Origin: Typha latifolia
Lineage: Eukaryota > Streptophyta > Magnoliopsida > Poales > Typhaceae
Length of the DNA: 64,000 nt
Assembly (NCBI GenBank): GCA_019914945.1
Contig: CM034106.1
Location: forward strand, 4,030,001 to 4,094,000
Direction: 5' to 3'
Shown here: one piece after another, positions 1 to 63,427 of the stretch
Numbering within the stretch: the first letter of the stretch is position 1
How the letters are laid out: each line of letters starts with the position of its first letter
The notes under the pieces: model-generated
What the model saw: the letters and a program-made list of their open reading frames with translations, nothing else
Database searches by the model: none
What the model was told of the DNA's origin: nothing
Position numbers and translations under genes: made by a program

Positions 1-582
1 GTAAGTGTTGGATAGATTGGACGAAAGGGGAGAAGAGGGCCACCCCTAAGGGACTAGGGTGATTAGCCGGACGAGGGAGGTTAGAAGCGGCGTCGCCGGG
101 GATTGAGAGAACGGGAGCGAAGAAGACGAAGGAGGCAAGGCAAAACTCAATCTCAATAATCAATAATAATCTTGGTTGCCCTACACATCCTTTTATAGGC
201 TAACCAACAACTCACATTAACCCTAAAACACAATTTTAGCCGACCGCGTTCGAACTCGCCCGACCGCGTTCGAACGCACTGAATTAGCTCTTCTGGATTT
301 GCGAACGCGATGCAGGCGTTCGAACGCGCCTGTCGGTATTTGTGAACGCGATGCAAGCGTTCACAGTGCGTTCGAACGCACCACGTTCGAACGCACAGTA
401 CATTCTCTTCACCACGTTCACAACCCCGTTCACAAACCGCGTTCGAACTTACTCCACCCGCGTTCGAACGCGACTTATAGAAAACTTATTTTAATGGAAA
501 TTAAACACTAAAACATGAAGCAAAAACACTCCTAAAGTGAATCCATGCTCGAGACGACGTCGGTGAAGTCCGAATCGTATCA
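1..582 (-). repeat. 3' LTR of chrA copy A (truncated by window edge)
   Basis: Matches 4331-4925 of the right LTR almost base for base; about the first 300 bp of the plus-strand form are outside the window. In transcription order (right to left) it contains the TGATACGATTCGG start, the palindrome box array (about 480 down to 240), a TATA box (plus strand ttttatagg, 191-199) and the leader. The right LTR carries one extra half-box (gatcgaacgc) in the array, at about 4671, that is missing here. Confidence 0.9.
191..480 (-). promoter_or_regulatory. LTR promoter: GCGTTCGAACGC array plus TATA box
   Basis: Reading right to left, about six TTCGAA-centred boxes, most of them full or near-full GCGTTCGAACGC, lie between 480 and 255, mixed with GCGTTCACA half-boxes. 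They are followed by CCTATAAAAGG (plus 191-199), a good plant TATA box. The same order recurs in every chrA LTR in the window. A promoter role is inferred from position. The boxes are CpG-rich and could equally be methylation targets. Confidence 0.6.
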
Positions 583-1032: not shown

Positions 1033-3384
1033 TCACTCACGTCGGCCTTTGTCATGAGTTTGCTTCATGCGGTTTTGGGCTGTGGCTAGGTGAGTCTTGA
1101 GCAGTCTCAATGTTTCATCTCGATCAGCAAGCTCCAAGTCAAGCTCGGTCCTATCCGCCGCCGCGAGTCTATCATAGGCACGCAAGATAGGGGGAGTGCG
1201 CCCATAAACCGCCTCAAAGGGGGTCATGCCGATGCTAGAGTGATGAGCCGTATTGTATGACCACTCAGCCCATGGAAGGAATTTGACCCAATCCTTTGGT
1301 CGTTCCGCCACAAAGCATCGCAAGTATTGCTCCAGTCCACGATTCACCACCTCGGTTTGGCCATCTGTCTCGGGGTGATAAGCTGAACTCAGGTTGATTT
1401 GAGTCCCTTGCAATCTGAAGAACTCGGACCAAAACTCACTGATGAAGATGCGATCTCGGTCTGACACGATCGTCCTAGGCATCCCATGCAAGCGTGCCAC
1501 TTCCTGAACAAAAATTTCAGCAACCCTTTTTGCTGAAAACGGGTAAGACAATGTTATGAAATGAGCATATTTGCTCAGTCTATCCACCACAACAAACACC
1601 ACCGATTGTCCCCGAACCTCCGGCAGCCCCTCGATGAAGTCCATGGAGATATCCTCCCAAATACGCTCTGGTATAGGTAGTGGTTGTAGCAGCCCACTAG
1701 GCTTGAGTGCCTCCGATTTGACTCGTTGGCAGATTTGACATTCACGCACATACTTCTTCACGTCCGTCTTCATCGCTCTCCATGTATAGTTTTGGGCCAG
1801 CCGCTTGTAGGTACGTAATACCCCTTCATGCCCTGCTATAGGAGTATCATGGAAATGTGCCATCAATAGTCTCCGTAGCTCTTCGTTCCGGGGTACCTTG
1901 ATTCGCCCGCACTCTAGTACTAACCCATCGCGCTCCTCGTGCTCGGGATGGCTTGAGGGGTTCTCTCTCAACTCCTCCATGAGTTGGACCAGCTCACTAT
2001 CCTCTGCACTAGCTCTCCGCAGATCTGAGAAGAAAGGAAAGGTGGGCGCCGAGAAAGAAGCGAGCTCCCTTGCGACCCCTTCATTTGGAAGTTCAAGCAA
2101 CGGTTGGCTTCCATCTAGCAGCACTCTCTTGTCATTTCTCCAAAACATCAATGTGAGGCTTGTAAAATCAAATGTCACGGGCCCCAAGCTTCGAAGCCAT
2201 TGGGTCCCTAAAACAATATCGGCACCTTGCAAGGCCAACGGATAAAGATCCAATGTGAAAGTTTGGCCTTGCACCTTCAATTCCACACCTCCACAAATAA
2301 AATCTGCTTGCAATGTGGTGCCATCTCCGATTGTCACATCGAACCCTTCCATGGGTTCCGACTCGAGCCCAATCTTCCTAAGGAGCCTCTTGTCAATGAA
2401 GTTGTGGGTGGACCCGGTGTCAATCAAGATTCTCACTGTGGTTTTCTTGACTACCCCGTTTACCCGCAAGGTTTTTGGCGCATCTGTCCCCAAATAGGCG
2501 TGGAGGGAGATTTCGGCTATCATGTCCTCCACGGGTTGCTCCTCAGTTTCTTCTCCTTGCTGTCCAGCCACATCTGCACCTTCAGCTGCAAACTCGTCCT
2601 CCGCTTCCTCCAATCCATCGATTAGCATCACCGATCCCATCGGTTTAGCGCAGCGATGCCCGGGTACAAACTTTTCATCACAACGGAAGCATAGGCCCTT
2701 GGCTCTTCTTTCTTCTACTTGGGCTGGTGTGAGTGCTCGTCCCGGACCTCTAGGTGCATACTTCACATCTTGGGATGGCTTCAAGGGTGCTCGAGGAGGT
2801 ACCACTGTAGCAGCAACCCTTGGAACTCCGATAGTATTTCCCGCCGCTATGTTTGGTTGAGCTTGATTGCGGCTTCCTTGGCTCATCCAACTCTGTTTCA
2901 AGTGTATCTTCATGGCCCTATGTTTGTCTTCCATCAGCACCGCATCTTCGAAGGCCTCCTTTAAAGTTCTAGGCCTTAAAGCCCTCACATCGGCTTGTAT
3001 GTCACCTCGCAACCCGGAGATGAAGGTGCTGCGAAGTTGCTGATCCGTCCATGGTGGATGACATCGGCTACTAATCCTCTCAAATTCTTCTTGGTATGAC
3101 CCAACCGTGGTCTTTTGCACCGTCTTTGAGAGGAGAGCATCAAAGTCTTCATATCCCGATGCTCCAAATCGCCGTGTGATATCGGCGCAAAATTCAGCCC
3201 AAGTTTCGATAGCCTCAGTGGCATTGGCTGCTCGAAACCAATGAAGCGCCGCATCCTCAAGGTGGAAGCTCGCAAGCGTCACCTTGTACTCTTTCGCCGT
3301 TCCTTGGTATGCAAAGAATTGCTCCGCCCTATACAACCAATCGATCGGGTCGCCACCTTTGAACTTGGGGAATTCGAGACGCAC
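1033..3384 (-). CDS. Gag-protease-integrase frame lacking RT and RNase H
   Basis: A 783-codon uninterrupted minus-strand frame. Residues 1-170 hold the chromovirus gag core (FKGGDPIDWLYRAEQFF, then a DADVRALRPRTLKEAF-like end). At about 230-247 there is a zinc knuckle (CFRCDEKFVPGHRC). At about 310-335 is the aspartic protease site LIDTGSTHNFID. After the protease tail (LLDGSQP) the frame passes within a few residues to ELASFSAPTFP, the linker that normally follows RNase H, so the RT and RNase H regions are missing with the frame preserved. The integrase follows: HHCC zinc finger (H-H-C-x2-C around CQICQRV), core D (FVVVDRLSKYAHF), second D (IVSDRDRIF) and E (GQTEVVNRGLEQYL). The true start is upstream in another frame (3329-3943). 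In the family the full polyprotein would be roughly twice this length. Confidence 0.85.
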   Translation of the reverse strand: MRLEFPKFKGGDPIDWLYRAEQFFAYQGTAKEYKVTLASFHLEDAALHWFRAANATEAIETWAEFCADITRRFGASGYEDFDALLSKTVQKTTVGSYQEEFERISSRCHPPWTDQQLRSTFISGLRGDIQADVRALRPRTLKEAFEDAVLMEDKHRAMKIHLKQSWMSQGSRNQAQPNIAAGNTIGVPRVAATVVPPRAPLKPSQDVKYAPRGPGRALTPAQVEERRAKGLCFRCDEKFVPGHRCAKPMGSVMLIDGLEEAEDEFAAEGADVAGQQGEETEEQPVEDMIAEISLHAYLGTDAPKTLRVNGVVKKTTVRILIDTGSTHNFIDKRLLRKIGLESEPMEGFDVTIGDGTTLQADFICGGVELKVQGQTFTLDLYPLALQGADIVLGTQWLRSLGPVTFDFTSLTLMFWRNDKRVLLDGSQPLLELPNEGVARELASFSAPTFPFFSDLRRASAEDSELVQLMEELRENPSSHPEHEERDGLVLECGRIKVPRNEELRRLLMAHFHDTPIAGHEGVLRTYKRLAQNYTWRAMKTDVKKYVRECQICQRVKSEALKPSGLLQPLPIPERIWEDISMDFIEGLPEVRGQSVVFVVVDRLSKYAHFITLSYPFSAKRVAEIFVQEVARLHGMPRTIVSDRDRIFISEFWSEFFRLQGTQINLSSAYHPETDGQTEVVNRGLEQYLRCFVAERPKDWVKFLPWAEWSYNTAHHSSIGMTPFEAVYGRTPPILRAYDRLAAADRTELDLELADRDETLRLLKTHLATAQNRMKQTHDKGRRE

Positions 3385-3943
3385 GACTTGCCCACGGATG
3401 CCATTGTCTCGTTCGGATCATGTCCTTGTCTAACCGGGGAGGATGCACCATGAAGGGTTGATGATCCCTCCTTCGGTTTTGATTAACTAGTTGTGGTTCC
3501 GGATCGTATTGACCCGCCCACGGATCTTGATCTCCAAGGCGGTCTCCATAGTGGTTCACCCGTCGGATGGGTTCACCTGCAACTGGACCTGGTGTAACCA
3601 TCCTTGCTTGTTTCTGCCCATAGGGTGGTGGTAGCAGCGGCTCTTGTGGTTGCAAAGGCTGAACCGGTGGCGGTGGGTTCAAGGGGGTGGACTCGCGTCG
3701 TGGGGTCGATGGTGCTTTCCCGTTCGCCCGTAGTTCCCGCATCATCTCCATCATCATCTGGTTGTTGATGGCCAATTGCTCTGAAATAGACCCCAACATG
3801 GCTTGAATGCTAGGTTCTTCCGTATTCTGATTAGATCGGGCGGTTCCACGGGTGGAAGTCCTTGCAATCGTTTCTCCCTCCTCTATTGGGAGAATCTCTT
3901 CTTCATCATCTCGCCATGCAGCCATGGATCTGGTTGTCGTCAT
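3329..3943 (-). CDS. Gag N-terminal region of copy A (frameshifted from the main frame)
   Basis: Minus-strand frame beginning MTTTRSMAAWRDDEEE, with a Thr/Arg-rich segment, a short amphipathic stretch (about residues 48-72) and a Pro-rich region (about 80-110). The same N-terminus is seen in copy A2 (27352-27861) and, decayed, in copy A3, so the start at 3943 is well supported. The frame runs past the junction with 1033-3384 and ends in non-gag residues, placing a single frameshift near 3390. The PBS lies just upstream at 3970-3981. The region lies in the Gag capsid precursor N-terminus, which has no catalytic motif. Confidence 0.75.
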   Translation of the reverse strand: MTTTRSMAAWRDDEEEILPIEEGETIARTSTRGTARSNQNTEEPSIQAMLGSISEQLAINNQMMMEMMRELRANGKAPSTPRRESTPLNPPPPVQPLQPQEPLLPPPYGQKQARMVTPGPVAGEPIRRVNHYGDRLGDQDPWAGQYDPEPQLVNQNRRRDHQPFMVHPPRLDKDMIRTRQWHPWASRASRIPQVQRWRPDRLVV

Positions 3944-3969: not shown

Positions 3970-4026
3970 GCTCTGATACCAGCTTGATACGATCTTCTCT
4001 TTGGGGCTAAGGCTCTGATACCAGCT
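3970..4026 (-). promoter_or_regulatory. Two tRNA-Met primer-binding sites in a 42-bp repeat
   Basis: The plus strand has gctctgatacca at 3970-3981 and again at 4012-4023; the complement TGGTATCAGAGC is the usual initiator tRNA-Met primer site of plant LTR elements. Each is followed by gct and a TGATACGATC LTR start (3985 and 4027). The segment 3985-4026 is therefore a 42-bp unit made of an LTR terminus plus a PBS. Depending on which PBS primes, the 5' LTR of copy A is 4027-4925 or 3985-4925. Confidence 0.8.
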
Positions 4027-4925
4027 TGATACGATCTAGCACAGAACTTTGAAATTAGATCCCAAAATATTCTGTCGTCGGATCTACGTGAGATTTTGAT
4101 ATGTTGTATCCTCGTAAAAGAGCTTTCCAACAAATCAAGTTTCAGGCAAATCGGAGTTAGGGATCTCGAGATATCGTCTGTTTAGTGGACGAAGGTCAGG
4201 TGATCTGTTTTGGATCCGTGGATGGAGGCACGTGATCGTAGGAAATGGTAGATGGTGGTGGACCGGCGTTAATGTGGTGGCACCGGTGAAAAGTGATGGT
4301 GGAACGGTTGTGGTTGATGGAAGGATTAGGGCAAGTGTTGGATAGATTGGACGAAGGGGGAGAAGAGGGCCACCCCTAAGGGACTAGGGTAATTAGCCGG
4401 ACGAGGGAGGTTAGAAGTGGCGTCGCCGGGGATTGAGAGAACGGGAGCGAAGAAGACGAAGGAGGCAAGGCAAAACTCAATCTCAATAATCAATAATCAA
4501 TTTGGTTGCCTACCACATCCTTTTATAGGCTAACCAACAACTCACATTAACCCTAAAACACAATTTTAGCCGACCGCGTTCGAACTCGCCCGACCGCGTT
4601 CGAACGCACTTGAATTAGCTCTTCTAGATTTGCGAACGCGATGCAGGCGTTCGAACGCGTGATCGAACGCGCCTGTCGGTATTTGCGAACGCGATGCAAG
4701 CGTTCATAGTGCGTTCGAATGCACCACGTTCGAACGCACAGTACATTCTCTTCACCACGTTCACAACCCCGTTCACAAACCGCGTTCGAACTTACTCCAC
4801 CCGCGTTCGAACGCGACTTACAGAAAACTTATTTTAATGGAAATTAAACACTAAAACATGAAGCAAAAACACTCCTAAAGTGAATCCATGCTCGAGACGA
4901 CGTCGGTGAAGTCTGAATCGTATCA
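4027..4925 (-). repeat. 5' LTR of chrA copy A
   Basis: A segment of 899 bp with ends TGATACGATC and GATTCGTATCA-like (plus strand ...gaatcgtatca at 4925). The array of seven TTCGAA boxes lies at about 4570-4825 and the TATA box at 4521-4529 (plus ttttatagg), so transcription runs leftward into gag. It shows close identity to 1-582. Relative to the solo copy at 13706-14740 it lacks a short segment just inside the TGATACGATC end. Confidence 0.9.
4521..4825 (-). promoter_or_regulatory. 5' LTR promoter of copy A: palindrome array and TATA box
   Basis: Seven TTCGAA-centred boxes in about 260 bp, four of them the full 12-bp palindrome or one base off, plus a GATCGAACGC half-box and GCGTTCACA-type half-sites. 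A random 6-mer would be expected about once per 4 kb. The TATA box CCTATAAAAGG follows in the direction of gag transcription at 4529-4521. The promoter role is inferred from layout. Confidence 0.65.
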
Positions 4926-8817: not shown

Positions 8818-9619
8818 TGTTGTGCAAATACCCAAATGGGTGAAGAAAGTGGAGGCCAGACCTTCACCCCCAAATACCACAAATGGGAAAGAGAAAGAAA
8901 ACCAATGCAATGCTTGGGAAAAACTCCAAACAAATGTTAATGGTGATAGAATAGCACTATCCAAGTTTTAATCATGGATTAAATACCCTAATGTAAGCAA
9001 TCACCAACAATGAAAACAATGGAGATAATAAAGAGAGAGAGAAATAAGATTTACGTGGTTCGGCGATGTGCCTACGTCCACAGGCGGAGCAATCTTCTTT
9101 ACTACGCAAATTCCTCACTTACAAACAGTTTAACAACTCTAATCACTCTCAATACAATGGTGACTCAACCCTCATAAATGTTTTTCCAATAACCAACCCT
9201 AAAAATACACTTTAGTATTTATAGTACGTTCAGATTTAGGGTTTTTCAGCGTCGCGTTCAAACGCCCTTGGGGGCGCGTTCGAACGTGCCCAATATCAAT
9301 GCAGTAGAACCAAAGGGGCGTTCGAACACAGGAGGGGCCGTTCGAATGCCTATAGAAATAGCTGCTCTTGAGTTGGTCTGCGTTCGAACGCAGCTGGGCC
9401 ATTCGAACGCCTGTAGAAAAGTTTGCTCTCGAGTTGGCTCGCATTTGAACGCGGCTAGGCTGTTCAAATGCCTATAGAAAAGTCTGCTCTCGGGTTGGCT
9501 CACGTTCGAATGCAGCTGGGCCGTTTGATCGCTTGCATCAAAGACTACTCTCTGTTTGGAACCTGCGTTCGAACACCCTTAGGCCCGTTCGAACTCACTG
9601 GCACAGAAATGCTGATACA
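8818..9619 (-). repeat. copia-1 5' LTR
   Basis: Inner end TGTTGTGC at 8818 is next to the PBS. The outer end is placed at tgctgataca near 9619 because a minus-oriented LTR starting TGT should finish ACA on the plus strand; this edge is uncertain by tens of bases. It contains the common plant copia leader text (acgtggttcggcgatgtgcc around 9053), a TATA box (ACTATAAATACTA, plus 9214-9225) and a tandem palindrome-box array at 9250-9600. No second LTR is available for comparison. Confidence 0.7.
9216..9612 (-). promoter_or_regulatory. copia-1 LTR promoter with 61-bp tandem repeats carrying palindrome boxes
   Basis: Four tandem units of 61 bp start at 9319, 9380, 9441 and 9502. Each begins with a GCGTTCGAACGC-type box and has a second CGTTCGAACGC-type box about 30 bp later, separated by text such as agctgggcc and tagaaaagt. 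Further boxes lie at about 9250, 9278, 9572 and 9590. The array ends about 20 bp before a TATA box (plus 9216-9224) oriented for leftward transcription into gag. Confidence 0.65.
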
Positions 9620-11289: not shown

Positions 11290-11745
11290 TCGAGTTCACA
11301 CCGCGTTCACAAACGTGTTCGAACACGGGTACTGCATTCACACAGACAGAGAGCCGCGTTCACAAACGCGTTCAAACGCGGGTACTGCGTTCACACAGAC
11401 AGAGAGCCACGTTCACAAATACGTTCGAATGCGGGTACTGCGTTCACACAGACAGAGAGCCGCGTTCACAAACGCGTTCAAACGCGGGTACTGCGTTCAC
11501 ACAGATAGAGAGCCACGTTCACAAATACGTTCGAACGCGGGTACTGCGTTCACACAGACAGAGAGCCGCGTTCACAAACGCGTTCGAACGCGGGTACTGC
11601 GTTCACACAGACAGAGAGCCACGTTCACAAATACGTTCGAACGCGGGTACTGCGTTCACACAGACAGAGAACCGCGTTCGAACGCGGGTACTGCGTTCAC
11701 ATAGACCGAGAGCTGCGTTCACAAACGTGTTCGAACGCAACCTGA
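11290..11745 (+). repeat. 53-bp tandem repeats with palindrome boxes (eight units)
   Basis: The marker cagaca/cagata recurs at 11343, 11396, 11449, 11502, 11555, 11608 and 11661, and in altered form (tagacc) at 11702: a 53-bp period, the last interval shortened to 41 bp by loss of a half-box. A unit reads roughly GCGTTCACA, cagacagagagcc, GCGTTCACAAAC, GCGTTCGAACGC, gggtact. Some boxes have TTCAAA instead of TTCGAA, as expected from CpG deamination. The array is upstream of the TATA box. Confidence 0.9.
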
Positions 11746-11749
11746 AGAA

Positions 11750-11904
11750 TTTAAGTTGTCGCGTTCGAACGCACTCGGGCCTATTCGAATGTACCTAAGT
11801 TCAAGTCATGCCATTCGAACGCACCAACGAAGTTTGATAAAATTGGACTTTCGTGAGTACAGATAAGACTTGGATTTGGCTCTATCTTGGAGATCATATA
11901 TAAG
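11750..11904 (+). promoter_or_regulatory. copia-2 LTR core promoter region
   Basis: After the tandem array, three more boxes (11761, 11780, 11809 approximately) are followed by a TATA box, tatataagg, at 11896-11904 in the sense direction. The right LTR has the same layout with tatataagg at about 20920-20928. The transcription start would lie shortly downstream. Confidence 0.6.
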
Positions 11905-13121: not shown

Positions 13122-13705
13122 ATGAATACTTCTAAACTGAAGGTGAATCTACAAACTGGTGAATCGTCAATGGCACCAAAGGTAAAATTTAGTCACACTC
13201 CTCGACAAAAGGTGAGTAGAGAATGGTTTGTTCCGACATGCTATCATTGCAGCATTCTAGGGCATATTCGACCTCATTGCAAATTTTTGCAAAAACATAG
13301 AACTGCTTTTATTTATAGGATTAAAACAAAGGTCATATGGGTCAAGAAAAGTGATTTGAAATGTTATGTTGTGCATACAGCTTTGAAAGCTTTAAATTCT
13401 GATTTGTGGTATTTAGACAGTGGTTGTTCAAGACATATGTCGGGTGACAAGTCGTTATTTTCTAATCTTGAAAAACATGAAGGAGGAGTTGTGACATTCG
13501 GAGATGGTAATTCATCCAAGGTAATAGGTAAAGGAAAGGTAAGTTCTCCGGGGGTTCCTATTCTTGAAAATGTTTTTTATGTTAAGGGCTTAAAAGCAAA
13601 TCTTTTGAGTATCAGTCAATTTTTTGATGAAGATTATGAGGTAAAATTCTCCAAAAATGATTGTACTATTCTAGATCATGGTGGTAATGTTATATGTTAT
13701 GGATC
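13122..13705 (+). pseudogene. copia-2 second zinc knuckle and protease
   Basis: Plus-strand frame with CYHCSILGHIRPHC (knuckle of the SIRE pre-protease region) and the copia protease site WYLDSGCSRHMSGDKSLF, followed by GGVVTFGDGNSSKVIGKGKV and ENVFYVKGLKANLLSISQF. The catalytic Asp-Ser-Gly is intact. The frame is cut at 13705 by the chrA solo LTR and resumes in the GAG-pre-integrase domain at 14746, so the host frame was continuous before that insertion. Confidence 0.87.
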
Positions 13706-14740
13706 TGGTACGATCACGCCTCTGGCTATGGAGCTCTGATACCAGCTTGATATGATCACGCCTCTGGCTATGGAGCTCTGATACCAGCTTGATACGATCT
13801 CGCCGTTTTGGTGAAGAGTCGATCTCTTCCAATTCTTGATCTGGACTAGATCTAGCACGGAACTTTGAAATAAGATCCTGAAATATGCTGCCGTCGGATC
13901 GACGTGAAACTTTGATATGTTGTAACCCAGAAAAGAGCTTTCCAACAAATCTAGTTGCAGGCGAATCAGATGTAGGGATCTCGAGATATCGTCCAATTTG
14001 TGGACAAAGGTCAGATGGTCTATTTTGGATCCGTGGATGGAGGCACGTGATCCTAGGTAATGGTAGATGGTGGTGGACCGGTGTTAATGTGGTGGCACCA
14101 GTGAAAAGTGATGGTGGAAGGGTTGTCGTTGATGGAAGGATTAGGGCAAGTGTTGGATAGATTGGATGAAGGGGGAGAAGAGGGCGACCCCTAAGGGACT
14201 AGGGTGATTAGCCGGACGAGGGAGGTTAGAAGCGGCATCGCCGGTGATTGAGAGAACGGGAGCGAAGAAGACGAAGGAGGCAAAGCAAACTCAATTCTCA
14301 ATAATCAATAATAATTTTGGTTGCCATACACATCCTTTTATAGGCTAACCAACAACTCAAATTAACCCTAAAACATAATTTTCGCCGACCGCGTTCGAAC
14401 TCGCCCGACCGCGTTCGAACGCACCGAATTAGCTCTTCTGGATTTGCGAACGCGATGCAGGCGTTCGAACGCGCGATCGAACGCGCCTTTCGGTATTTGC
14501 AAATGCGATGCAGGCGTTCACATTGCGTTCGAACGCACCGTGTTCGAACGCGCAGTACACTATCTTCACCCACGTTCACAACCCTGTTCACAAACCGCGT
14601 TCAAACTCACTCCACCCGCGTTCGAACGCGACTTACAGAAAACTTATTTTAATAGAAATTAAACACTAAAACATGAAACAAAAATACTCCTAAAGTGAAT
14701 CCATGCTCGAGATGACGTCGGTGAAGTCCGAATCGTATCA
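13706..14740 (-). mobile_element. chrA solo LTR inside copia-2 (TSD GGATC)
   Basis: A 1035-bp insertion bounded by GGATC at 13701-13705 and 14741-14745. Ends are TGGTACGATC (one base off TGATACGATC) and CGTATCA. The minus orientation is given by the box array (14388-14640) and the TATA box at 14337-14345. Unlike a simple solo LTR, its left end holds two tandem 42-bp units (13706-13747 and 13748-13789), each an LTR terminus plus a complete PBS (gctctgatacca at 13733-13744 and 13775-13786). It splits the copia-2 coding frame. Confidence 0.93.
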
Positions 14741-15660: not shown

Positions 15661-15672
15661 TCTGCTAATGTT

Positions 15673-17433
15673 ATGATAGATGAATCCACTACTGATTTAA
15701 CTGAAGCTACTCCTATTTTTATTTCTGCAGATACATATGACGAAGAAATAGGAAAGGAGCTTGATCTGGAAATTGAGAATCAAGATGAGGACAAAGTTGA
15801 AATGAACAAAGATGACTGCAACGTACCTGAACCATCTGCCAGAGTGAAATCAGATCATCCACTGTCACAAGTGATCGGAGACGTAAATGAACCAATTAAG
15901 ACAAGACAACAAATCCAAAGTGAGGTATCATTTACTTGTTATACATCTTCTTTTGAACCTAAAAATGTGAAGGAAGCATTGTTAGACGATTCTTGGGTTA
16001 ATGCTATGCATGAGGAATTAGAGCAATTTTCTAGGAATGATGTTTGGTATTTAGTTCCTAGACCTAAGAATGTGAACGTCATTGGAACAAAATGGATTTA
16101 CAAGAATAAAAGTGATGAACATGGCAATATAGTTCGAAATAAAGCTAGACTCGTAGCACAGGGATATACTCAGGTTGAGGGTATAGATTTTGATGAGACA
16201 TTTGCTCCTGTTGCTAGATTAGAATCTATTCGTATACTGCTTGTTATTGCTTGTCACTTAAAATTTAAATTGTTTCAAATGGATGTGAAAAGTGCTTTCT
16301 TGAATGGTACTCTGAATGAAGATGTTTATGTAGAACAACTAAAAGGGTTCGAAGATCAAAAATTTCCTTCTCATGTGTTTAAACTGAAAAAGGCCCTCTA
16401 CGGGCTAAAACAAGCTCCAAGAGCTTGGTATGAGAAGTTGACCACTTTTTTAGTGGTTGCGGGGTTCACTCGAGGGGGAGTAGACAAGACATTGTTCATT
16501 AGATGGTCAAACAAGTGTTTAGTTGTGGCACAAATATATGTGGATGACATTATCTTCGGGGCAACGAGTCGATCATTAGCTAAGGAGTTTGTAGATCTTA
16601 TGCATAGTCATTTTGAGATGAGCATGATGGGTGAGTTGAAGTTCTTTTTGGGACTTCAAATTACTCAGTTGGAAAGAATGATATTTATCGCTCAAACCAA
16701 GTATGCTAAGGATCTTGTGACTAAATTCGGTTTAGAAAATGCAAAACATACTAGAACTCCTATGAGTACAACTACCAAACTAGGTAAGGATATTACAGGA
16801 AAAAGTGTCGATCAGACACTGTATAGGAGCACGATTGGTAGCCTTTTGTACTTAACTGCTAGTAGACCAGACATTGCATTTAGTGTCGGTGTGTGTGCTA
16901 GGTTTCAATTTGAACCTAAGGAGACACATTTGTTTGTTGTGGAACGTATTATAAAATATGTTGGTGGCACAGTTGACTCGGGAGCTATCATATCTGGATA
17001 CACGAACTTTGATTGGGCAGGTTCATGTGATGATAGAAAAAGTACCTCAGGTGGATGTTTTTATATTGGAAACAATCTGGTTGCTTAGCACAGTAAGAAA
17101 TAAAACTCGATATCTTTATCTACTGCGGAGGCCGAGTACATTGCAGCGGGAAGTTGTTCTCAGTTACTATGGATGAAACAGATGGTCAAAGATTACCGCA
17201 TTGAACAAAATACTATGGTGCTTTATTGTGATAACATGAGTGCTATTAATATATCGAAAAATCCTGTTCAACACTCGCGTACAAAACATATTGATATCCG
17301 ACATCATTTTATACGCGAGTTAGTTGAAGCCAAAATAATAGCAGTAGAACATGTTGAGACGGAGAAACAGTTGGGTGATCTATTTACAAACCTTTGGATT
17401 TACAGAGATTTGAGTATCTTCGTACTTCTTTAG
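15673..17433 (+). pseudogene. copia-2 reverse transcriptase and RNase H
   Basis: The 471-codon frame 15673-17088 contains the pre-RT linker, RT ([20 protein letters not shown] at the start, [35 protein letters not shown], catalytic [22 protein letters not shown]) and the start of RNase H ([20 protein letters not shown]). A stop at about 17086 and a frameshift separate it from the RNase H end (17173-17433), which has TAEAEYIAA just upstream, YCDNMSAINISKNPVQHSRTKHI and FIRELVEA. YVDD is intact. This is the best-preserved pol segment of the element, and RT motifs place it in the SIRE/Maximus group. Confidence 0.92.
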
Positions 17434-18459: not shown

Positions 18460-18620
18460 GGGTGTTCGAATGCAAATTTTTGAGTTCGAACGCGGTGACT
18501 GGCGCGTTCAAATGCGCAGAGTGGTGCGTTCGAACGCACTCGAGGATTCTTTATATATTGCGTCCGAACCCAAGGGTTTTCATCTTCCATCTTCCAAACC
18601 CTAGAAACCCTTCATTTTCT
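18460..18620 (+). promoter_or_regulatory. Putative internal promoter before the extra ORF
   Basis: Four boxes (gttcgaatgc at about 18463, gttcgaacgc at 18484, gcgttcaaatgcg at 18505, gcgttcgaacgc at 18527) lie directly upstream of ttatatattg (TATA-like, 18551-18560). About 30-40 bp later comes pyrimidine-rich leader text (cttccatcttccaaaccctag). The layout copies that of the LTR promoters. This suggests the extra ORF may have its own transcript, but there is no direct evidence. Confidence 0.45.
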
Positions 18621-19013
18621 CCCTCTCAAATCTTCAAGATCTTGGTATTTTTCATCAAATTTCTCACTACAAACCCTTTTAGAGGGTAGTTCTCCTCCGA
18701 ATCTAGCGTTTTTCGGCCGAATTTCTAAGTTTTTCTTCACTTTTGTGAGGTATGAACATCCATCAATTTTCCTATTTTTTATTCAATTAAGTCTCTTGAT
18801 CTTGATTGATTTCGTGCGTTTTCGAGTTTTGATCACGTTAAAGTTACTATCTTGATGTTTCTTGTGTGATTGAACATGATATCTTAACGTTTTCAAGTGG
18901 ATGATGGATTTCATTTAGGGCCTTCATGGTTTCTTGGATTTTTTTTATTTCTTGCTATCTTTTTGTTCGCTTTGGGCATGTATTGAATCTTGCATCTTGT
19001 TTCTTTCTCAAGA

Positions 19014-19999
19014 ATGCCTAGAAAAGCTGCAGTTTCCAAGAAACCTAGGCCGCTTTCCTCACCTATTTCGGCTCCAAAGTTTTCTACTTCAACGGCTATA
19101 GGGCGATACAAACATAATTTTGGCACCCGTCCTGTTATCCGTGAACAACCCGTGGTCATTTCCGATTTTTCTACTTTGGGGATAGAACATATATTTACTG
19201 AGCGAGGATGGTTATCGGTGTGTCGGATGAGCGGGACTGCTTATGTGGAAGTTGTTCGAGAATTTTTTGCCCAGTTTTAGAACGTTGTATTCGTTCTACT
19301 GTTCGTGGGGTGTCTGTATACTTGGACTCAGATGTTATTCGCACTGAACTTCGTCTTCCTGATGGTGAGTTCCAGTACCCCACGTCTGCTCCACTTCCCG
19401 ATGTCGATGAATATGCGCCGGCACCGTGTCGATCAAAGGGGAACGTTGGAAGGGAAACATGATGCCGCATGCGAAGGCGACACCGAAGGGCTCGCATGCT
19501 TCACCTATTTTGTCTGTACAACGTCACCCCCAAGACTCGACATTCCAGTATTAGTCTAGATCGTGCATTCCTTCTTCATGCAATGTTAACTGGAGTTTTT
19601 GTTGATTTGGCTGCGGTGATCTATGATTCGATTCTCACAGCTGCCCAGAAAGAAGCACCTTGTGAGGGGTTACCATTTGACATCTTTATTACAAATTTGT
19701 GCATTCAGAGTGGGGTGCGTGTGGATGCTTTGGAACCTTCTCTTACTTCGCACAAGCCGTTGGATCGGATTACTCTTAAGCGGAGTCAAGCTCACGACCA
19801 GTCGTCTCCTCTCAAGCCGTCCTCTTCCGCCGCTGGTCGCTCCTCGCACCTTGACAATTCTGATGATAGCTCTGACGGTGACACATCTCACTCTAAGGGG
19901 GAGTTACCACAGTATTCTGACCGTTTTGATCAGCTTAGTACTCAAGTGCAGGATCTCCATTCGGCCATGAATGACTTACGAGCTGAGCAAGCTCGTTAG
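19014..19999 (+). pseudogene. copia-2 extra ORF (plant transposon-protein-like, env position)
   Basis: Starts MPRKAAVSKKPRPLSSP at 19014 and reads on to RGWLSVCRMSGTAYVEVVREFFAQF. After a frameshift near 19278 it continues as STVRGVSVYLDSDVIRTELRLP, and after another near 19440-19470 as DRAFLLHAMLTGVFVDLAAVIYDSI. The end (19700-19999) is Ser/Asp-rich followed by a heptad-like segment (DRFDQLSTQVQDLHSAMNDL). The RGW..F / FLLHA..TG pattern is that of a domain commonly annotated as putative plant transposon protein, found in the extra ORF of some SIRE-type elements. No transmembrane segment or signal peptide is seen, so the env label is positional only. Function is unknown. Confidence 0.65.
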
Positions 20000-20416: not shown

Positions 20417-21000
20417 TGTTAGGTTTTTATTTGTTGGCAATTATGTACAAAATATTCTAAGTGTATTTTTTCATGTATATGAGCTTTACACAAGTCTAGA
20501 ATATCTCTGGTTTGAAGAATTGCAAGATTATTGGAGAAAAGTCATCGAGTTCACAACGCATTCACAAACGCGTTCTAACGCGGGTACTGCGTTCACACAG
20601 ATAGAGAGCCGCGTTCATAAACGCATTCGAACGCGAGTATTGCATTCACATAGACAGAGAGCCGCGTTCACAAACGCATTCGAACGCGAGTACTGCGTTC
20701 ACACAGACTTAGAGCTGCGTTTACAAACGCGTTCGAACGCAACCTGAAGAATTCAAGTTGTCGCGTTCGAACGCACTCGGGCCCGTTCGAACGTACCTAA
20801 GTTCAAGTCATGCCGTTCGAACGCACCCGGGCCGCGTTCGAACGCACCAACGAAGTTTGATAAAATTGGACTTTCGTGAGTACAGGTAAGACTTAGATTT
20901 GGCTCTATCTTGGAGATTATATATAAGGATTGTGATGCTCTATCTTGAGGGTGGTTGAAGAAGCATTATTGAAGGAGACTTCTTGAGGCTACATCGGTTC
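20417..21000 (+). repeat. copia-2 3' LTR (3' end lost)
   Basis: Aligns with the left LTR from TGTTAGG to ttgaggctacatcggttc, then diverges at about 21000, so the end and the outer TSD are missing. It has only three 53-bp units (markers at 20598, 20651, 20704) against eight in the left LTR, and a TATA box at about 20920-20928. Boxes at 20765, 20785, 20815 and 20836 are well preserved. Confidence 0.88.
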
Positions 21001-24707: not shown

Positions 24708-25607
24708 TGATACGTTCTGGCACGGAACTTTGAAATTAGATCCCAAAATATGCTGTCATCAGATCGACGTGAGATTTGGATATGTTGTAGCCTCGTAAAA
24801 GAGCTTTCCAACAAATCTAGTTACAGGCGAATCAGAGTTGGAGATCTCGAGATATCGTTCGTTCAGTGGCCGAACGTCAGGATGCTCTGTTTTGGATTCG
24901 TGGATGGAGGCATGAGATCCTAGGTAATGGTGGATGGTGGTGGACCGGCGTTAATGTGGTGGCACCGGTGAAAAGTGATGGTTGAAGGGTTGTGGTTGAT
25001 AGAAGGATTAGGGCAAGTGTTGGATAGATTGGACGAAGGGGGAGAAGAGGGCCACCCCTAAGGGACTAGGGTGATTAGCCGGACGAGGGAGGTTAGAAGC
25101 AGCGTCGCCGGGGATTGAGAGAACAAGAGCGAAGAAGACGAAGGAGGCAAGGCAAAACTCAATCTCAATAATCAATAATCAATTTGGTTGCCTACCACAT
25201 CCTTTTATAGGCTAACCAACAACTCAAATTAACCCTAAAAACACAATTTTCGTCGACCGCGTTCAAACTCGCCCGACCGCGTTCGAACGCACCGAGTTCG
25301 CTCTTCTGGATTTGCGAACGCGATGCAGGCGTTCGAACGCGCGATCGAACGTGCCTGTCGGTATTTGCGAACGCGATGTAGGCGTTCACAGTGCGTTCGA
25401 ACGCACCGCGTTCGAACGCACATTACATTCTCTTCACCACGTTCACAACCCCGTTCACAAACCGTGTTCGAACTCACTCCACCCGCGTTCGAACGCGACT
25501 TACAAAAAACTTATTTTAATGGAAATTAAATACTAAAACATGAAATAAAAATACTCCTAAAGTGAATCCATGCTCGAGACGATGTCGGTGAAGTCCGAAT
25601 CGTATCT
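24708..25607 (-). repeat. 3' LTR of A2
   Basis: 900 bp, start TGATACGTTC, end cgtatct (final a changed to t). Box array 25255-25505 with about six TTCGAA boxes; TATA (ttttatagg) at 25203-25211 for leftward transcription. Confidence 0.9.
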
Positions 25608-27773: not shown

Positions 27774-27818
27774 TCATTGGAAGCGCTTGTCCGAGGAACG
27801 GTGGCTCTGATACCAGCT

Positions 27819-28692
27819 TGATACGATCACGCCTTTTTGGTAAAGGGTCGATCTCTTCCAATTCTTGATATGGATTTTGATATGTTGTAGCCTCGTAAAA
27901 GAGCTTTCCAACAAATCTAGTTACAGGCGAATCAGAGTTGGGGATCTCGAGATATCGTTTGTTTAGTGGCCGAACGTCAGGATGCTTTGTTTTGGATTCG
28001 TGGATGGAGGCACGAGATCCTAGGAAATGGTGGATGGTGGTAGACCGACGTTAATGTGGTGGCATCGGTGAAAAGTGATGGTTGAAGGGTTGTGGTTGAT
28101 GGAAGGATTAGGGCAAGTGTTGGATAGATTGGACGAAGGGGGAGAAGAGGGCCACCCCTAAGGGACTAGGGTGATTAGCCGGACGAGGGAGGTTAGAAGC
28201 GGCGTCGCCGGGGATTGAGAGAACGGGAGCGAAGAAGACGAAGGAGGCAAGGCAAAACTCAATCTCAATAATCAATAATAAATTTGGTTGCCTACCACAT
28301 CCTTTTATAGGCTAACCAACAACTCAAATTAACCCTAAAAACACAATTTTCGTCGACCGTGTTCGAACTCGCCCGATCGCGTTCGAACGCACCGAGTTCG
28401 CTCTTCTGGATTTGCGAACGCGATGCAGGCGTTCGAACGCGCGATCGAATGTGCCTGTCGGTATTTGCGAACGCGATGCAGGCGTTCACAGTGCGTTCGA
28501 ACGCACAGTACATTCTCTTCACCACGTTCACAACCCCGTTCACAAACCGCGTTCGAACTCACTCCACCCGCGTTCGAACGCGACTTACAGAAAACTTATT
28601 TTAATGGAAATTAAACACTAAAACATGAAATAAAAATACTCCTAAAGTGAATCCATGCTCGAGACGACGTCGGTGAAGTCCGAATCGTATCA
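27819..28692 (-). repeat. 5' LTR of A2
   Basis: 874 bp, plus-strand start TGATACGATCACGCC, end CGTATCA. Array 28355-28590, TATA at 28303-28311. It has one box fewer than the left LTR: the cgcaccgcgttcgaa segment seen at 25400 is missing near 28505. Confidence 0.9.
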
Positions 28693-28930: not shown

Positions 28931-28976
<46 letters not shown>

Positions 28977-36528: not shown

Positions 36529-36536
36529 TTTTAGAG

Positions 36537-36548
36537 TGGTATCAAAGC
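36537..36548 (+). promoter_or_regulatory. Primer-binding site of B
   Basis: tggtatcaaagc, one base from the usual tggtatcagagc complement of initiator tRNA-Met, eight bases after the LTR end at 36528. Confidence 0.85.
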
Positions 36549-48127: not shown

Positions 48128-48955
48128 TGATACATTTAGTTAGGATCTTTTCTTATTGTATTAGTTGTTTATTTTTATTAAAATAAAATTCATGTAGGTC
48201 ATATTCAAAGGGGTCGCGTTCGAACGCCCTTGCGAACGCCTGCATCAGGTTCGCAAATATATAGAGTGTGAAATGCGCGTTCAAACGCCTGCATCGCGTT
48301 ACACATACAGCAAACGCCTTTTGTGCGTTCAAATGCGATTGGGCGCGTTCGAACACGATCGGTGGGGATCCTTTAGAATTAGGGTTACTTATTATTTTAG
48401 GACTTGTTGGCTAGCCTCTATATATATGTGGATGGCAGCCAAATTTATAATGCTATTGGAATATTGATTTCTTGCCTATTTATCTTCTTTCTACTTTAAT
48501 CTCCCTCCTCCCTCTTCACCATCCTTTCACCTCTATCTATGGCAAGGTTTTTCCTAACTTCTAATCTCCCTCGTCTGTCGAGTCCTCCCTCTTTTTTGGA
48601 ATCTCGACCACTTCATTTCTTTCGTCTATATCCCTTAATCATATCCACCATCCACCATCCACCTTCATCTCCATACCCATCCATAATCCTAACATCTACT
48701 CCACCCGTCACCACCACCATTACCCACATTATTCCATATTTTCGCCCCAGTTGCAGTTCGAATCTGCGAAGGATGTAAATACTAATTGTAGATAAGGAAG
48801 TTAAGAATCTAATTCACTTGGTTTCGTAATTTTCTAACTACAGGAAAATATTTGGAGAATATTTTTTCATAATTGCGCGGACTGTTTTCTACAATAAATT
48901 CAGATCTTAAAGGAATTGTTTCATACCCTCTCTTTTGGTACCGTAGAACCCATCA
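48128..48955 (+). mobile_element. F4 solo LTR (TSD GACTT)
   Basis: 828 bp, TGATACATTTAG to GAACCCATCA, with GACTT at 48123-48127 and 48956-48960. Contains a partly decayed box array (48214-48356) followed by a TATA region, cctctatatatatgtgg, at 48415-48431 in plus sense. It is homologous to the LTRs at 60904-61562 and 62795-63427 (minus). Confidence 0.93.
48210..48431 (+). promoter_or_regulatory. F4 LTR promoter: box array and TATA box
   Basis: Boxes gcgttcgaacgc (48216), gcgttcaaacgc (48282), gcgttcaaatgcg (48325) and gcgttcgaacacg (48343) lie upstream of ctatatatatgtgg. Array and TATA are in the same order as in chrA and copia LTRs. Confidence 0.6.
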
Positions 48956-52936: not shown

Positions 52937-53118
52937 TGATACGATTCGAACTTCACCGATGTCGTTTCAAGCATGGATACACCTTATGGGTGTCTTTTCT
53001 TATTGTTTTAGTGTTTTATTAAAAAAAATTAGATATATGTAGGTTGCGTTCGAATGCGATTGGGTGTGTTCCAACGCGCTTGCAAATGCCTACAGGCGTT
53101 CACAAATACAGAGAATGA

Positions 53119-56581: not shown

Positions 56582-57476
56582 TGATACGGTTCGGACTTCA
56601 CCGATGTCATCCCGAGCATGGATACACCTTGTGGGTGTCTTTCTTATTGTTTTAGTATTTTATTTAGAAAAAAATAAGATTTTTGTAGATTGCATTCAAA
56701 TGTGAGTGGGTGCGTTTGAACGCGCTTGCGAACGCCTACAGGCGTTCACAGATACAGAGAACAGGAATTGTGCGTTTGAATGCCACGTTCAAATGCTTGC
56801 AGACGTTCACAAATACAGAGTACGCATTTGGTGCGTTCGAATGCGTTTGACCCCGTTCGAATGAGGTCGGTGGAAATCCACTATTTCTCGAGTTAATAAT
56901 TATCATTTTTGAATTGCTTGGTTAGCCTCTTAAGGTGTGGATGGCAAAAAGAGGATATGCAATGAATTGAGTTTTTGCCTTAATCTTCTTCTTCTCTTTC
57001 TCTCTCGTTCCCTCACCCCTCGACTTCGCCGCCTCTAGCCTCCCTCTAACGGCCACTCACCCTAATCCTTTAGGGGGCGGCCCACTCCTCCCCCTTCTTC
57101 AAATCTCTCTACCCTCGCCCTAATCCTTTCCATCATCCATAATCCTTCCACCACCATCACTCACTGGTGCCACCCCATTACCATCGGCCTACCACCTCCA
57201 TAATCTACCTACGAACCCGTGCCTCTATCCACAGATCCAAAGAACAGACTCTTTAATGTTTGCCCACTTATCTAAAGATATCTCCGGACCATGCCCTCTG
57301 ATTCTCCTGAAATTAAATTCATTAGAGAGCTCCTTTCTAGAGCTACGACCTATCAAAATTTCACATTGATCTGATAGGTATATATTTAGGAATCCTCTTC
57401 TAAATTTCCATGCAAGATCTTGTCTAGATCTGAAAACGGGATAGATCAAATTTTAATCCAAGGGGAGATCGCATCA
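56582..57476 (+). repeat. 3' LTR of A3
   Basis: 895 bp, TGATACGGTTCGG to GATCGCATCA. Box array at 56690-56870 is decayed (gcattcaaatgtg, gcgtttgaacgcg, gcgttcgaatgcg, cgttcgaatgag). A proper TATA box is not seen at the expected place (cctcttaaggtgtgg near 56928). It is more diverged from A than A2 is. Confidence 0.88.
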
Positions 57477-57698: not shown

Positions 57699-58328
57699 TG
57701 ATACGATTCGGACTTCACTGATGTCGTCTCGAGCATGGATACACCTTATGGGTGTCTTTTCTTATTATTTTAGTATTTATTTTGAAGAAAAATAAGATTT
57801 TTGTATGTTGCATTCGAACACGGGTGGGTGTGTTCAAACGCGTTTGCAAATGCCTACATCATGTTTGCAAAAGCAAAGAATGCGAAATATGCATTCAAAC
57901 GCGATCAGACGCGTTCGAACGCCGCGCTAGAACACCTGCATCAGGTTCACATCGATAGAGAATGCCTTTTATGCGTTCGAACGCATTTGACCCCATTCGA
58001 ACACAGTCAGCAAAAATCTACTGTTTCTAGGGTTAATGATTGTCATTTTTGAATTGTTTGATTAGTCTGTTAAGGTGTGGATGGCAACCAAAGAGGCATT
58101 ATTGAATGAATTGAGTTTTTCTCCAGATAATATCTCCAGATCCCGCCGTCCAATTTTTCTAAAATTTAATTCGTTGGAAAGCTCTTTTTTAGAGATACAA
58201 CATATCAAAATTTCACGTTGATTCGATGGCTATATTTTCCGTAATCCTCTTCTAAAATTCCGTGCAAGATTCTGTCCAGATCTGAAAATAGGATAAATCA
58301 AACCTTAACCCAAGGGGAGATCGTATTA
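57699..58328 (+). repeat. chrA-type LTR fragment with internal deletion
   Basis: TGATACGATTCGG to GATCGTATTA, 630 bp. It closely follows the A3 3' LTR but lacks about 270 bp between ttgaatgaattgagttttt (58117) and tccagataatatctcc. Array at 57805-58010. No matching 5-bp duplication is seen at its ends. Confidence 0.8.
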
Positions 58329-58439: not shown

Positions 58440-58904
58440 ATGTTCGAATGCGGCCTAAGTGCATCCGAACGTGATGACTTAACTTTCACTAGCTGAGTTT
58501 GAACGTGCAAATTCACTTCTCTATATGTTTGAGCGTGCTGTGAACGTATACAGGGTGCGCGTTCGAATGGCCCTTAACAGCGTTCGAACGATAAAAATGT
58601 TTTTTATGTATTTGCGAATGCCTAAACACGCGTTCGAACAGCTTGAATGTGTTATTTGTATTTGTGAACGTCTGATCCTTCTTTCGAATGACCGAAACTT
58701 GTTACTAGTCGATGCGAATGCCTGAGTGCGCATTCAAACATGGTCTAGGTGCGTTCGAACGCGGTTCGAACGCAAAAACTTTTCTCTTCTCGATCTTGAA
58801 ATTCTTCAATCCAAATACTTTCAAAACTTGTATAAATGCTCATGTACATGTATAAAAATACTTAGAATATTTTGTACACAATTGCCAACACTAAAAACCT
58901 AACA
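58440..58904 (-). repeat. copia-2-type LTR fragment
   Basis: The reverse complement starts tgttaggtttttagtgttggcaattgtgtacaaaatattctaag, matching 11162-11210. The array here is dense (about ten boxes between 58440 and 58775) but does not show the 53-bp periodicity. The distal end is lost. Confidence 0.8.
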
Positions 58905-59960
58905 TACTAGACCAAGAACACTACTAATGAGACTCTTTATAAACTATAAGACGAGAATAAAGTATGCACAAACAACACAAATTTAACGTGGAAAAACTCT
59001 TATCAACTAAGGGTAAAAAAACCACATATTTCTTTTATGAGGTAAAACTAAGCATTATGAATCCAACAGTTACAGGAACACTTACAAATCAACTGAAATT
59101 ACCTATAATCATCATAATACTATTTTTCTTGACTCCCACTCAATACGTTGCCTCTTTTTTTTGGTTCACAACCTTGTTGTCACTAAGGTTATAGCTCAAC
59201 CTTGATAACTCTTAGGCAATCTCAAGTACCTTCTTTAATCTTGGACTAAGTGAGCACGAGATGACTCAAATATCTTCAAGCTTCAAGCATCTCCAAGAGC
59301 TCCCCTCTTTTTTCTTTAGTGTAGCTCAATGTAACCTCCAAAGGTGTCTCTCAGATTTTTCAAGTTCCCCTTTTATATCTCTGGAAAGATAGACTCCAGA
59401 ATGCCCTAATCTAAACTAATAAGAGCCATCTTAAGAAAACCATTTGAACAATTGGAGTTTCAGCTAATCGCATTCCAAAAAATCCCTTCTGAATGAGTAT
59501 CCAACATTTGAAGTCCTAAAGCCATCTATTCAAATGCCTTTCCCATGTTTGATATAATGAGCTCTTTAGAAAATCTTGTTCGAATGACTTTCTCAAGTTG
59601 GATATAGTGAGCTTTGTGAAAAATTCTATTCGAATGCTTTTCCCATGTTACATAGTAATGTGTCTCTTGACGAGCGTATCATGTTCAAATGGAACAACGT
59701 TCTACAAAACCATTTGAGCAGATTTCCAACTCTTATAAAAAGATGCCTCATGGAAATTTTGTTTTGAACAGATTGATCCTATTTGAACAAGAAATCTTCT
59801 TTGCCTCTAAGATGTGCTTTTGGTCTTTACAATTCAATCTAACAAATTACAACTCATATAGTTTTTGTTTTGTCATAAATTTGTTAATTAAAAGCTTCAA
59901 CAAAATCTGCCACCAAGAATGTTGATACTAACTGCATTAGACAAACTGGACATGTTTTCA
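58905..59960 (-). repeat. Further copia-like LTR fragment with decayed box array
   Basis: Contains the copia LTR leader motif (aatttaacgtggaaaaactc, 58980) and, in minus sense, a TATA box agatataaaagggg (plus 59371-59380). Upstream of it (59450-59700) are TTCGAAT/TTCAAAT-type boxes at 59528, 59578 and 59638 in units of 50-60 bp, with boxes decayed to forms such as gttcgaatgac and attcgaatgc. Family and exact ends are undetermined. Confidence 0.5.
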
Positions 59961-60903: not shown

Positions 60904-61562
60904 TGATGGGTTCCCATACTAAAGATAGGCTACGCAACGATTCCTTCAAGATCTGGATGTATTACAGGAATCAGTCCGCACAACCATGGGAAAATATTCA
61001 TTAACGTGGGTGATGGTGCTGGTGATAGGGTGGAGTGGATGTTAGGGTTATGGATGGATATGGAGATAAAAGTGGATGGTGGATGGTGAATGTGATTAAG
61101 GGGTATAGATGAAGACGAAAAAGTAGTCGAGATCCCAAAGAAAAGGGAGGAATCGACAGACGAGGGAGATTAGAAGTTAGGAGAGACCTTACAAATGGTA
61201 GAGGTGGAAGGATGGTGAAGAGGGATGAGGGAGATTAGGGTAGAAAGATGATAAAGAGACAAAAAATTAATATTCCAGCAGCATTATGAATTTGGCTGTC
61301 ATCCACATATATAGAAAGGCTAGCCAACAAGTCCTAAAATAAAAGGCGTTCGAACGCACAAAAGGCGTTCTCTATATGTGCAAACGCGATGCAGGCGTTC
61401 GAACGCGCATTACGCGTTCTTTGTATTTGGGAACCTGATGTAGGCGTTCGCAAGGGCGTTCGAACACGACCCCTCCTACGTTCAAACGCGACCTACGTGA
61501 ATTTTATTTTAATAAAAATAAACAACTAATCCAATAGGAAAAGATCCTAACTAACTATATCA
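60904..61562 (-). repeat. F4 LTR (left)
   Basis: 659 bp, plus-strand TGATGGGTTCCC to ACTATATCA, minus-oriented: array at 61340-61495 (gcgttcgaacgc at 61348 and 61394), TATA (ccacatatatag, 61303-61314). It is homologous to 48128-48955 in reverse. It has a PBS at its left side and an integrase remnant at its right. Confidence 0.88.
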
Positions 61563-62794: not shown

Positions 62795-63427
62795 ATCCGC
62801 TGAGTGATGGTGGTAGTGATGGGTGGAGTGAATGTTAGGGTTATGGATGGGTATGGAGATGAAGGTGGATGGTGGATGGTGGATGTGATTAAGGGATATA
62901 GACGAAGGGGAAGAAGTGGTCGAGATCCTAAAGAAGAGAAAGGAATCGACAGACGAGAAAGATTTGAAGTTAAGAGAGACCTTGCCAACAATAGAGATGG
63001 AACGATGGTGAAGAGGGAGGAGGGAGATTATGGTAGAAAGATAATAAAGAGGCAAGAAATCAATATTCTATTAGCATTATAAATTTGGCTGACATCCACA
63101 TATATATATAGGCTAGCCAACAAGTCCTAAAACAATAAGTAATCCTAATTCTAGAGGATTCTCGCAGATCATGTTCAAACATACATGATCGCGTTCGAAC
63201 ACATAAAAGACGTTCTATGTATGTGCGAACACGATGCAGACGTTCAAACGTGCCCGACCGCGTTCGAACGTGCATTACGTGTTCTCTGTATTTGCAAACC
63301 TGATGCAGGCATTCGCAAGGGCGTTTGAACACGACCCCTCCTGCATTCGAACGCGACCTACAAAAATTTTATTTTAATGAAAATAAATAACTAATGCAAT
63401 AAGAAAAAATCCTAACTAAGTGTATCA
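62795..63427 (-). repeat. F4 LTR (right), 3' part lost
   Basis: Ends GTGTATCA at 63427 on the plus strand. The TATA region (tatatatata) is at 63101-63110 and the box array at 63175-63355 is partly decayed. It lacks the last part present at 60904-61010, because a deletion joins the LTR to RT near 62790. Confidence 0.85.

Follow-up and report, generated by a model that had tools for sequence, protein, structure and literature searches.

An LTR at about 4027-4925 of the DNA studied here carries, upstream of a TATA box, a series of boxes centred on TTCGAA, and the same boxes recur nearby in LTRs of both gypsy and copia elements. This raises the question of what the boxes do there, and of how LTRs of unrelated families came to have them in common. 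The window, that is the whole 64-kb stretch analysed (C8:4030001-4094000 of Typha latifolia), is a nest of LTR retrotransposons. We think it likely that the arrays are promoter-proximal enhancers in the U3 of several LTR families, bound cooperatively by one factor, and that this module has spread to both gypsy and copia elements.

The box, its arrays and their elements

Allowing up to two mismatches, the window contains 100 matches to the palindrome GCGTTCGAACGC, whereas 100 shuffles average 1.00 and never exceed 4. Of 90 palindromes built from these half-site letters, none other has more than 9 matches. Exact copies number 14,944 genome-wide (214 Mb in 62 contigs), compared with 0 for the pattern read backward and 2 for the control GCGAACGTTCGC, the genome-wide box counts being lower bounds in which many copies of the same families are counted repeatedly. 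The arrays of the window are collected in Table 1. The original prediction, that TTCGAA-centred boxes are arrayed near TATA boxes in several LTR families, is confirmed by the counts, arrays and positions, including those at the LTR that raised the question (boxes at 4576-4814, TATA box at 4522-4527, minus strand). The intervals it had named, with the F4 ends taken from self-comparison (7,989 bp), hold 83 of the 100 boxes and 74 of the 99 sites with TTCGAA alone. Sixteen of the other 17 boxes lie in 18462-18571, 53046-53077, 56712-56844 and 57810-57984, and a single one is at 12410. A further copia-like LTR that had been listed at 59450-59700 is a weak member, having just two TTCGAA sites.

Table 1. 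Box arrays and associated promoter features in the window (boxes with up to two mismatches unless stated).
Feature	Position	Strand	Remarks
chrA (gypsy) array, 8 boxes	4576..4814	-	U3 of LTR ~4027-4925, element sense minus
TATAAA	4522..4527	-	48 bp downstream of the 4576..4814 array in element sense
chrA array, 7 boxes	246..471	-	TATAAA 192-197
chrA array, 8 boxes	14391..14629	-	TATAAA 14337-14342
chrA array, 8 boxes	25259..25496	-	TATAAA 25204-25209
chrA array, 6 boxes	28359..28581	-	TATAAA 28304-28309
F4 array, 4 boxes	48216..48356	+	TATA 48419
F4 array, 4 boxes	61346..61489	-	TATA 61308-61313
F4 array, 4 boxes	63191..63354	-	TATA 63105-63110
copia-1 array, 10 boxes, pairs 19-22 bp apart	9254..9596	-	TATAAA 9218-9223; primer-binding-site word 8803
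copia-2 5' LTR array, 11 boxes, mainly 53-bp tandem	11315..11822	+	TATA 11897; LTR start 11162
copia-2 3' LTR array, 8 boxes	20570..20845	+	TATA 20918; LTR start 20417, TGTTAGG, purine tract before
copia-2-like LTR array	58440..58773	-	LTR start 81% like copia-2
Array of element without assigned family, 5 boxes	18462..18571	+	inside copia-2; TATATA 18552 between boxes 4 and 5
Gypsy-related array, 4 boxes	56712..56844	+	
Gypsy-related array, 5 boxes	57810..57984	+	
Decayed box pair, 20-bp spacing	53046..53077	+	gypsy-related: DNA match to 57690-57858
Two TTCGAA sites, 4 mismatches each	59576..59637	.	weak member of the original list

The chrA elements are assigned to gypsy by a 794-aa ORF (1036-3417, minus strand) with Pfam matches to Ty3_capsid, gag, protease, Integrase_H2C2 and rve; the ORF has no Pfam match to reverse transcriptase or RNase H, as if that part had perhaps been lost in frame. 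The copia-1 element (minus) has SH3_retrovirus, Pol_BBD and Retrotran_gag_2 between 6435 and 8412, and copia-2 (plus) has Pol_BBD at 13122-13736 and RVT_2 at 15661-17085. The arrays had been claimed to run in the sense direction of each element, which holds for chrA, copia-1 and copia-2 when checked by primer-binding-site words, LTR starts and Pfam domains, the sense of F4 being taken from its match to chrA plus its own TATA box. In the copy at 58440-58775 a TATA box was not found on the side where it is expected. F4 and chrA have DNA in common beyond the boxes and thus share the boxes by common descent, as had been proposed.

Elsewhere in the genome boxes were rarely met outside arrays. Twenty 10-kb stretches chosen by position contain 7 exact boxes, six in arrays of one stretch (L007) and one in another (L021), the latter presumed to be an array remnant because a degenerate box pair lies 94 bp away. 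At up to two mismatches the same stretches have 24 boxes (17 in L007, 5 in L019, 1 in L021 and 1 in L005, the last a solitary match with two mismatches) and the other 16 stretches have none; the stretches served to test whether boxes are equally frequent outside LTRs, the pattern that the original prediction had set against itself. For a general host factor such a rarity of exact boxes outside arrays would be odd. Around 20 of the 24 exact-site clusters listed on contig C1 we took motif-anchored stretches of 1.5 kb, 19 of which have an array of three or more boxes and one a single box. At G000:C1:13207738-13207810 the boxes form a 13-bp head-to-tail tandem. Within the window, other retrotransposon DNA lies at 28700-48200, where RVP_2, RVT_1 and rve matches of gypsy type were obtained; this block has zero boxes at up to two mismatches, which shows that LTRs do not carry the box in general.

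For grouping, the boxes at up to two mismatches were gathered into 45 places, of which 17 belong to the window, 6 to the stretches chosen by position and 22 to the motif-anchored stretches, and these places were compared with the boxes masked. When links must span 150 bp or more, the gypsy group comprises 18 places, the copia-2 group 11, copia-1 a pair, and the smaller groups G4 and G5 three and two; the pair c13/c14 and seven single places are left over. A loose comparison joins 39 of the 45. Under stricter scoring the gypsy and copia-2 groups are still joined at 60 bp (36 of 45 places) and at 100 bp (32 of 45), and are separate at 150 bp. No direct link between gypsy and copia-2 places was found at 60 or 100 bp with boxes masked; the join runs via c13 and c14, window neighbours at which a gypsy-like LTR abuts a copia-2-like LTR. 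G4 enters the gypsy component at 60 bp, and G5, by promoter words judged by eye alone, looks like a diverged gypsy relative. We count about five unrelated groups, namely gypsy, copia-1, copia-2, c6 and c33, the superfamily being backed by Pfam for the first three.

Box spacing, distance to the TATA box and divergence

In each of the seven groups counted, some adjacent boxes lie 19-22 bp apart (32/93, 16/82, 8/16, 2/5, 2/5, 3/4 and 1/4 gaps), where c11, c13 and c23 were put with gypsy and c14 with copia-2 by our judgement, and five single-box places, having no gaps, are absent from the counts. Exact GTTCGAAC pairs are found genome-wide 5,922 times at 18-22 bp (11 in the backward control), 566 times at 13-17 bp (control 21) and 287 times at 23-27 bp (control 96). 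The spacers within pairs differ among families and often contain GGGC or GGGGC in either sense. Spacings of 12, 15, 30-34, 42, 48-55 and 61-63 bp also recur, and for this reason no strict or general helical phasing is claimed.

We also noticed an asymmetric partner motif, GCGTTC(A/G)CA(A/C)ANACAGAGA, which has 787 + 761 matches genome-wide against 0 for a reversed control. Among 100 places listed (of 550 + 507; all on C1), the partner stands exactly 7 bases after the GAACGC end of a box in 79. About eight of these 7-base spacers are CTGCATC-like (gypsy type), and the rest are of the GGGTACT/GAAATCT sort (copia-2 type), many of them in tandem units. The idea of a single palindrome is too simple, as a preferred pair spacing and the partner are also present.

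TATA(A/T)A is found 30-90 bp beyond the array end in 27 of the 40 multi-box arrays (26 on one side, 1 on both and 13 on neither), one of the 27, c14, having it on the wrong side by LTR orientation. By chance, a 60-bp stretch has such a site on a given strand in 930/9,732 cases (9.6%). Over 76 array sides a TATA occurs in 11 in the 30-60 bin, in 17 in the 60-90 bin, and in 0-3 in each of the remaining ten bins; a control on the opposite strand also has its maximum at 60-90 bp, with 12 of 76 sides, which is expected because TATATA reads alike on both strands. The distance is constant per family, being 48-49 bp in six chrA copies, 30-31 bp in two copia-1 copies and 72-74 bp in both copia-2 copies that the window has; in two copia-2 relatives, 223 and 311 bp separate the TATA from the last box counted. 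Decay, or the lack of a promoter role, may account for the 13 arrays in which the 30-90 bp range has no TATA.

Divergence was measured in 13 gypsy-group copies against chrA, in columns where two chrA copies agree (c0, c11 and c12 left out). Non-CpG differences amount to 55/406 in boxes and 1,041/2,790 in flanks, so box divergence is about a third of that of the flanks, a difference present in all 13 copies and possibly overstated, since repeated boxes may slip in alignment. The corresponding CpG differences are 142/566 and 182/383, and gapped columns make up 185/1,157 in boxes and 792/3,965 outside. The least changed positions are the TT and AA of TTCGAA (12/93, 12/93, 2/83 and 10/82). The central C has changed in 24/89 and the central G in 17/83, with C>T or G>A making up 15 of the changes at either position. 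On one side the outer GCG has changed like the flanks (G 34/86, C 45/92, G 28/93), partly towards the box where chrA itself departs from it, and because of this flank-like divergence the full 12-mer is taken to be less constrained than the core. Slower box divergence, open to the same overstatement, is seen as well in the copia-1 pair (1/35 in boxes vs 45/233 in flanks), in the G5 pair (4/20 vs 37/145, or 0/17 vs 41/148 with roles swapped) and in G4 (2/21 vs 34/129).

Some arrays are plain tandems, like the 53-bp units of copia-2, and could be read as neutral tandem duplication or satellite-like growth with no function. We judge this very unlikely for the arrays as a whole, given that unrelated families have the same box and pair spacing, that the core diverges more slowly, and that the arrays lie next to a TATA box. 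Still less credible is an action in RNA or as cruciforms: the boxes are palindromic and would fall in the 3' end of the RNA, where those of the 3' U3 could form transcript hairpins, but the 1,524 half-site pairs show 225 one-sided changes as against 6 two-sided ones that still pair and 5 that do not, and this mostly one-sided change indicates that pairing is not maintained. A shared site close to the promoter in unrelated families, as originally predicted, is well supported by the TATA position, the pair geometry and the slower divergence of the core.

Putative function and candidate binding factors

From the box sequence, its arrays, their position and spacing, and the slower divergence, we infer binding, activation, the kind of factor and the route of spread as follows. 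The boxes would be bound by a dimer of a sequence-specific factor, most likely a single host protein, that recognises CGTTCGAACG and cooperates across box pairs 19-22 bp apart, or about two turns of the helix. Once bound, it would stimulate Pol II at the TATA box that lies 30-90 bp downstream. In the partner GCGTTC(A/G)CA(A/C)ANACAGAGA, a half-site may be combined with another site for this complex. The putative binding protein could be sought with the box pair as bait. If one factor does read the U3 of both superfamilies, a single host protein could switch many retrotransposons, and how unrelated elements acquire common promoters would become open to test.

That a host transcription factor relays a host signal to these elements is the conjectural part of the original prediction, and no known motif that was tried fits fully. 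The pol III B-box has the consensus GGTTCGANTCC and was rejected by eye, as the box has a G at the conserved C of the B-box. For an HSF site the nGAAn/nTTCn rule fails, with 0 TTCNNGAA and 0 GAANNTTC in 9,048 bp of arrays. VOZ proteins, according to the portions of PMC6321167 available to us, read GCGT and ACGC half-sites seven bases apart; GCGTN7ACGC occurs 0 times in the same 9,048 bp, the N8 form 0 times and the N4 form 99 times, and VOZ was likewise rejected.

The CHR element read by LIN54, whose plant homologues are the TCX proteins (PMC8500230, in part), has the consensus TTYRAA and is best if Y = T or R = A (PMC4974476, in part), and the human Bub1 CHR is TTCGAA (PMC4705690, in part). 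The core agrees with this consensus, TTCGAA occurring 202 times in the arrays, or 255 times with one-step variants. The optimum does not agree, as 202 of these 255 are TTCGAA and the partner GCGTTCRCA has no such core. Given its preference for Y = T or R = A, LIN54 has better sites than TTCGAA with the CpGs retained, and it would be the core alone that fits LIN54/TCX as binder. A CPP/TCX domain search of the genome returned 9 matches in five places.

A different role would be anti-silencing, the arrays acting like CpG islands that keep the LTR promoter unmethylated, possibly through a transposon-encoded binder, and the VANC motif arrays of VANDAL elements offer an analogue. The observed/expected ratio of CpG averages 1.83 in 39 arrays (1.05 with the boxes removed) compared with 0.76 in the window, and sites outside arrays are few, both of which would suit such a role. 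We nevertheless hold it to be unlikely: the position next to the TATA box fits an enhancer equally, the CpGs of the boxes decay too, and, as regards a transposon-encoded binder, a scan of 20 of the 42 ORFs of at least 130 aa showed no known transcription factor domain, zinc knuckles and a PF20167 match being set aside.

That PF20167 match ('Putative plant transposon protein') belongs to an ORF in the region 18462-19996, inside copia-2; about 0.9 kb separates the ORF from a box array upstream, and that array may be part of another kind of element. A short chrA element at 24708-28692 has two LTRs about 95% alike and an interior of about 2.2 kb. It was considered as the source of a transcription factor and rejected, its three minus-strand ORFs having no Pfam match above cut-off; one of them matches the chrA polyprotein over 35 aa (E 2e-07), and the other two have no match of note.

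Exchange or convergence, and relation to known systems

The original prediction left it open whether the site was spread by exchange or arose by convergence. Seven copia arrays were compared with eight gypsy arrays, boxes masked, by best ungapped matches, with G4 and G5 counted as gypsy by judgement. Of 56 comparisons in the same sense, 15 gave a match beyond all 40 shuffles, as did 6 of 56 in reverse, where chance would give about 1.4 for either sense; here and below the comparisons are not independent, since arrays within groups are related, and half-sites are only partly masked. The excess comes from the five copia-2-type arrays (14/40 same-sense, 5/40 reverse), as opposed to the two copia-1 arrays (1/16 in each orientation). 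When nine arrays were compared in all 36 pairs and both senses with 100 shuffles, 9 of 72 cases lay beyond all shuffles, 5 same-sense and 4 reverse; one of the five is copia-2 against its own relative, and three of the four are chrA half-box words, e.g. TTGTGAACG. The word CAGACAGAGAGC is common to copia-1 and copia-2 in the same sense, and the copia-2-like array at 58440..58773 contains TTCGCAAATACATA, similar to words of gypsy arrays.

The same-sense excess of partner motifs between copia-2 and gypsy arrays favours module exchange for that pair, and it is the reading that we favour there as far as sequence comparison goes. For gypsy and copia in general, entry of the module into the U3 would be somewhat likelier by exchange between co-expressed elements than by independent invention. 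Convergence, in which the availability of a single factor led every family to build its own array out of a short site already present, is compatible with an enhancer role and is possible, if on the doubtful side. It agrees with the near-complete lack of anything but boxes common to copia-1 and gypsy, with the unlike pair spacers of different families, with the lack of a direct gypsy to copia-2 DNA link of at least 60 bp once boxes are masked, and with the separate gains of heat elements in copia families described in the part of PMC5059998 available to us. Against it stand the asymmetric words common to copia-2-type and gypsy arrays, with their same-sense bias, and the identical 7-base distance of the partner from the box in gypsy and copia-2 types. 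Of the two original alternatives the comparisons thus lean towards exchange for copia-2 and gypsy, and either may apply to copia-1, which has little but the boxes in common with gypsy.

The layout itself, CpG-rich palindrome arrays ahead of a TATA box, is already known from Sireviruses, whose LTRs have palindromic repeated motifs forming CpG islands, with the TATA box a mean of 37 bp after the island (PMC2829016, like the other systems cited from excerpts). Our arrays resemble those RM boxes as multicopy CpG-rich palindromes with a TATA box just downstream. They differ in that 12 of 13 Sirevirus RMs have a CGG-CCG core, vary between elements and belong to one copia genus (PMC2829016), whereas GCGTTCGAACGC has no CGG-CCG core, is common to gypsy and copia, and comes with a preferred spacing and a partner. 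The chrA elements also fall outside the Sirevirus hosts, being gypsy by Ty3_capsid and Integrase_H2C2. As in the heat elements of ONSEN, COPIA37, TERESTRA and ROMANIAT5, the site of one host factor would be present in several LTR families, there with partly independent gains; unlike here, those sites are nGAAn/nTTCn units read by HSFs, and the families treated in the excerpt are copia (PMC5059998). Tnt1, Retrolyc1 and Retrosol of Solanaceae likewise have a U3 that is a regulatory module with its own history, but the changes described in the excerpt stay within one copia superfamily, with no sharing between copia and gypsy (PMC1838419). The Medicago Myc1 element GGGGTTCGAACCCC, predicted by MEME, is also a palindrome around GTTCGAAC; it has GGG/CCC flanks and is placed in gene promoters, with no LTR link in the part of the paper available (PMC4274732).

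In the literature searched, mostly papers open without subscription and including the available parts of PMC11267843 (Phytophthora) and PMC4274732, we found no report of this palindrome in LTRs, nor of one palindrome with spacing and partner common to gypsy and copia in one genome. What looks new here is accordingly the one palindrome and geometry common to both superfamilies. We put forward, as a tentative proposal, that the module of a palindrome pair about two helical turns apart with a partner at 7 bases moved between gypsy and copia LTRs in one plant lineage, and that much of the LTR load may be recognised by a single factor that serves few host genes, perhaps one devoted to or captured by transposons.

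As a minor observation on the chrA elements, two of their 5' LTRs are each followed by two copies of the primer-binding-site word TGGTATCAGAGC on the minus strand, at 3970-4023 and 13733-13786, with a distance of 42 bp between the copies; 13709-13804 is a 42-bp tandem.
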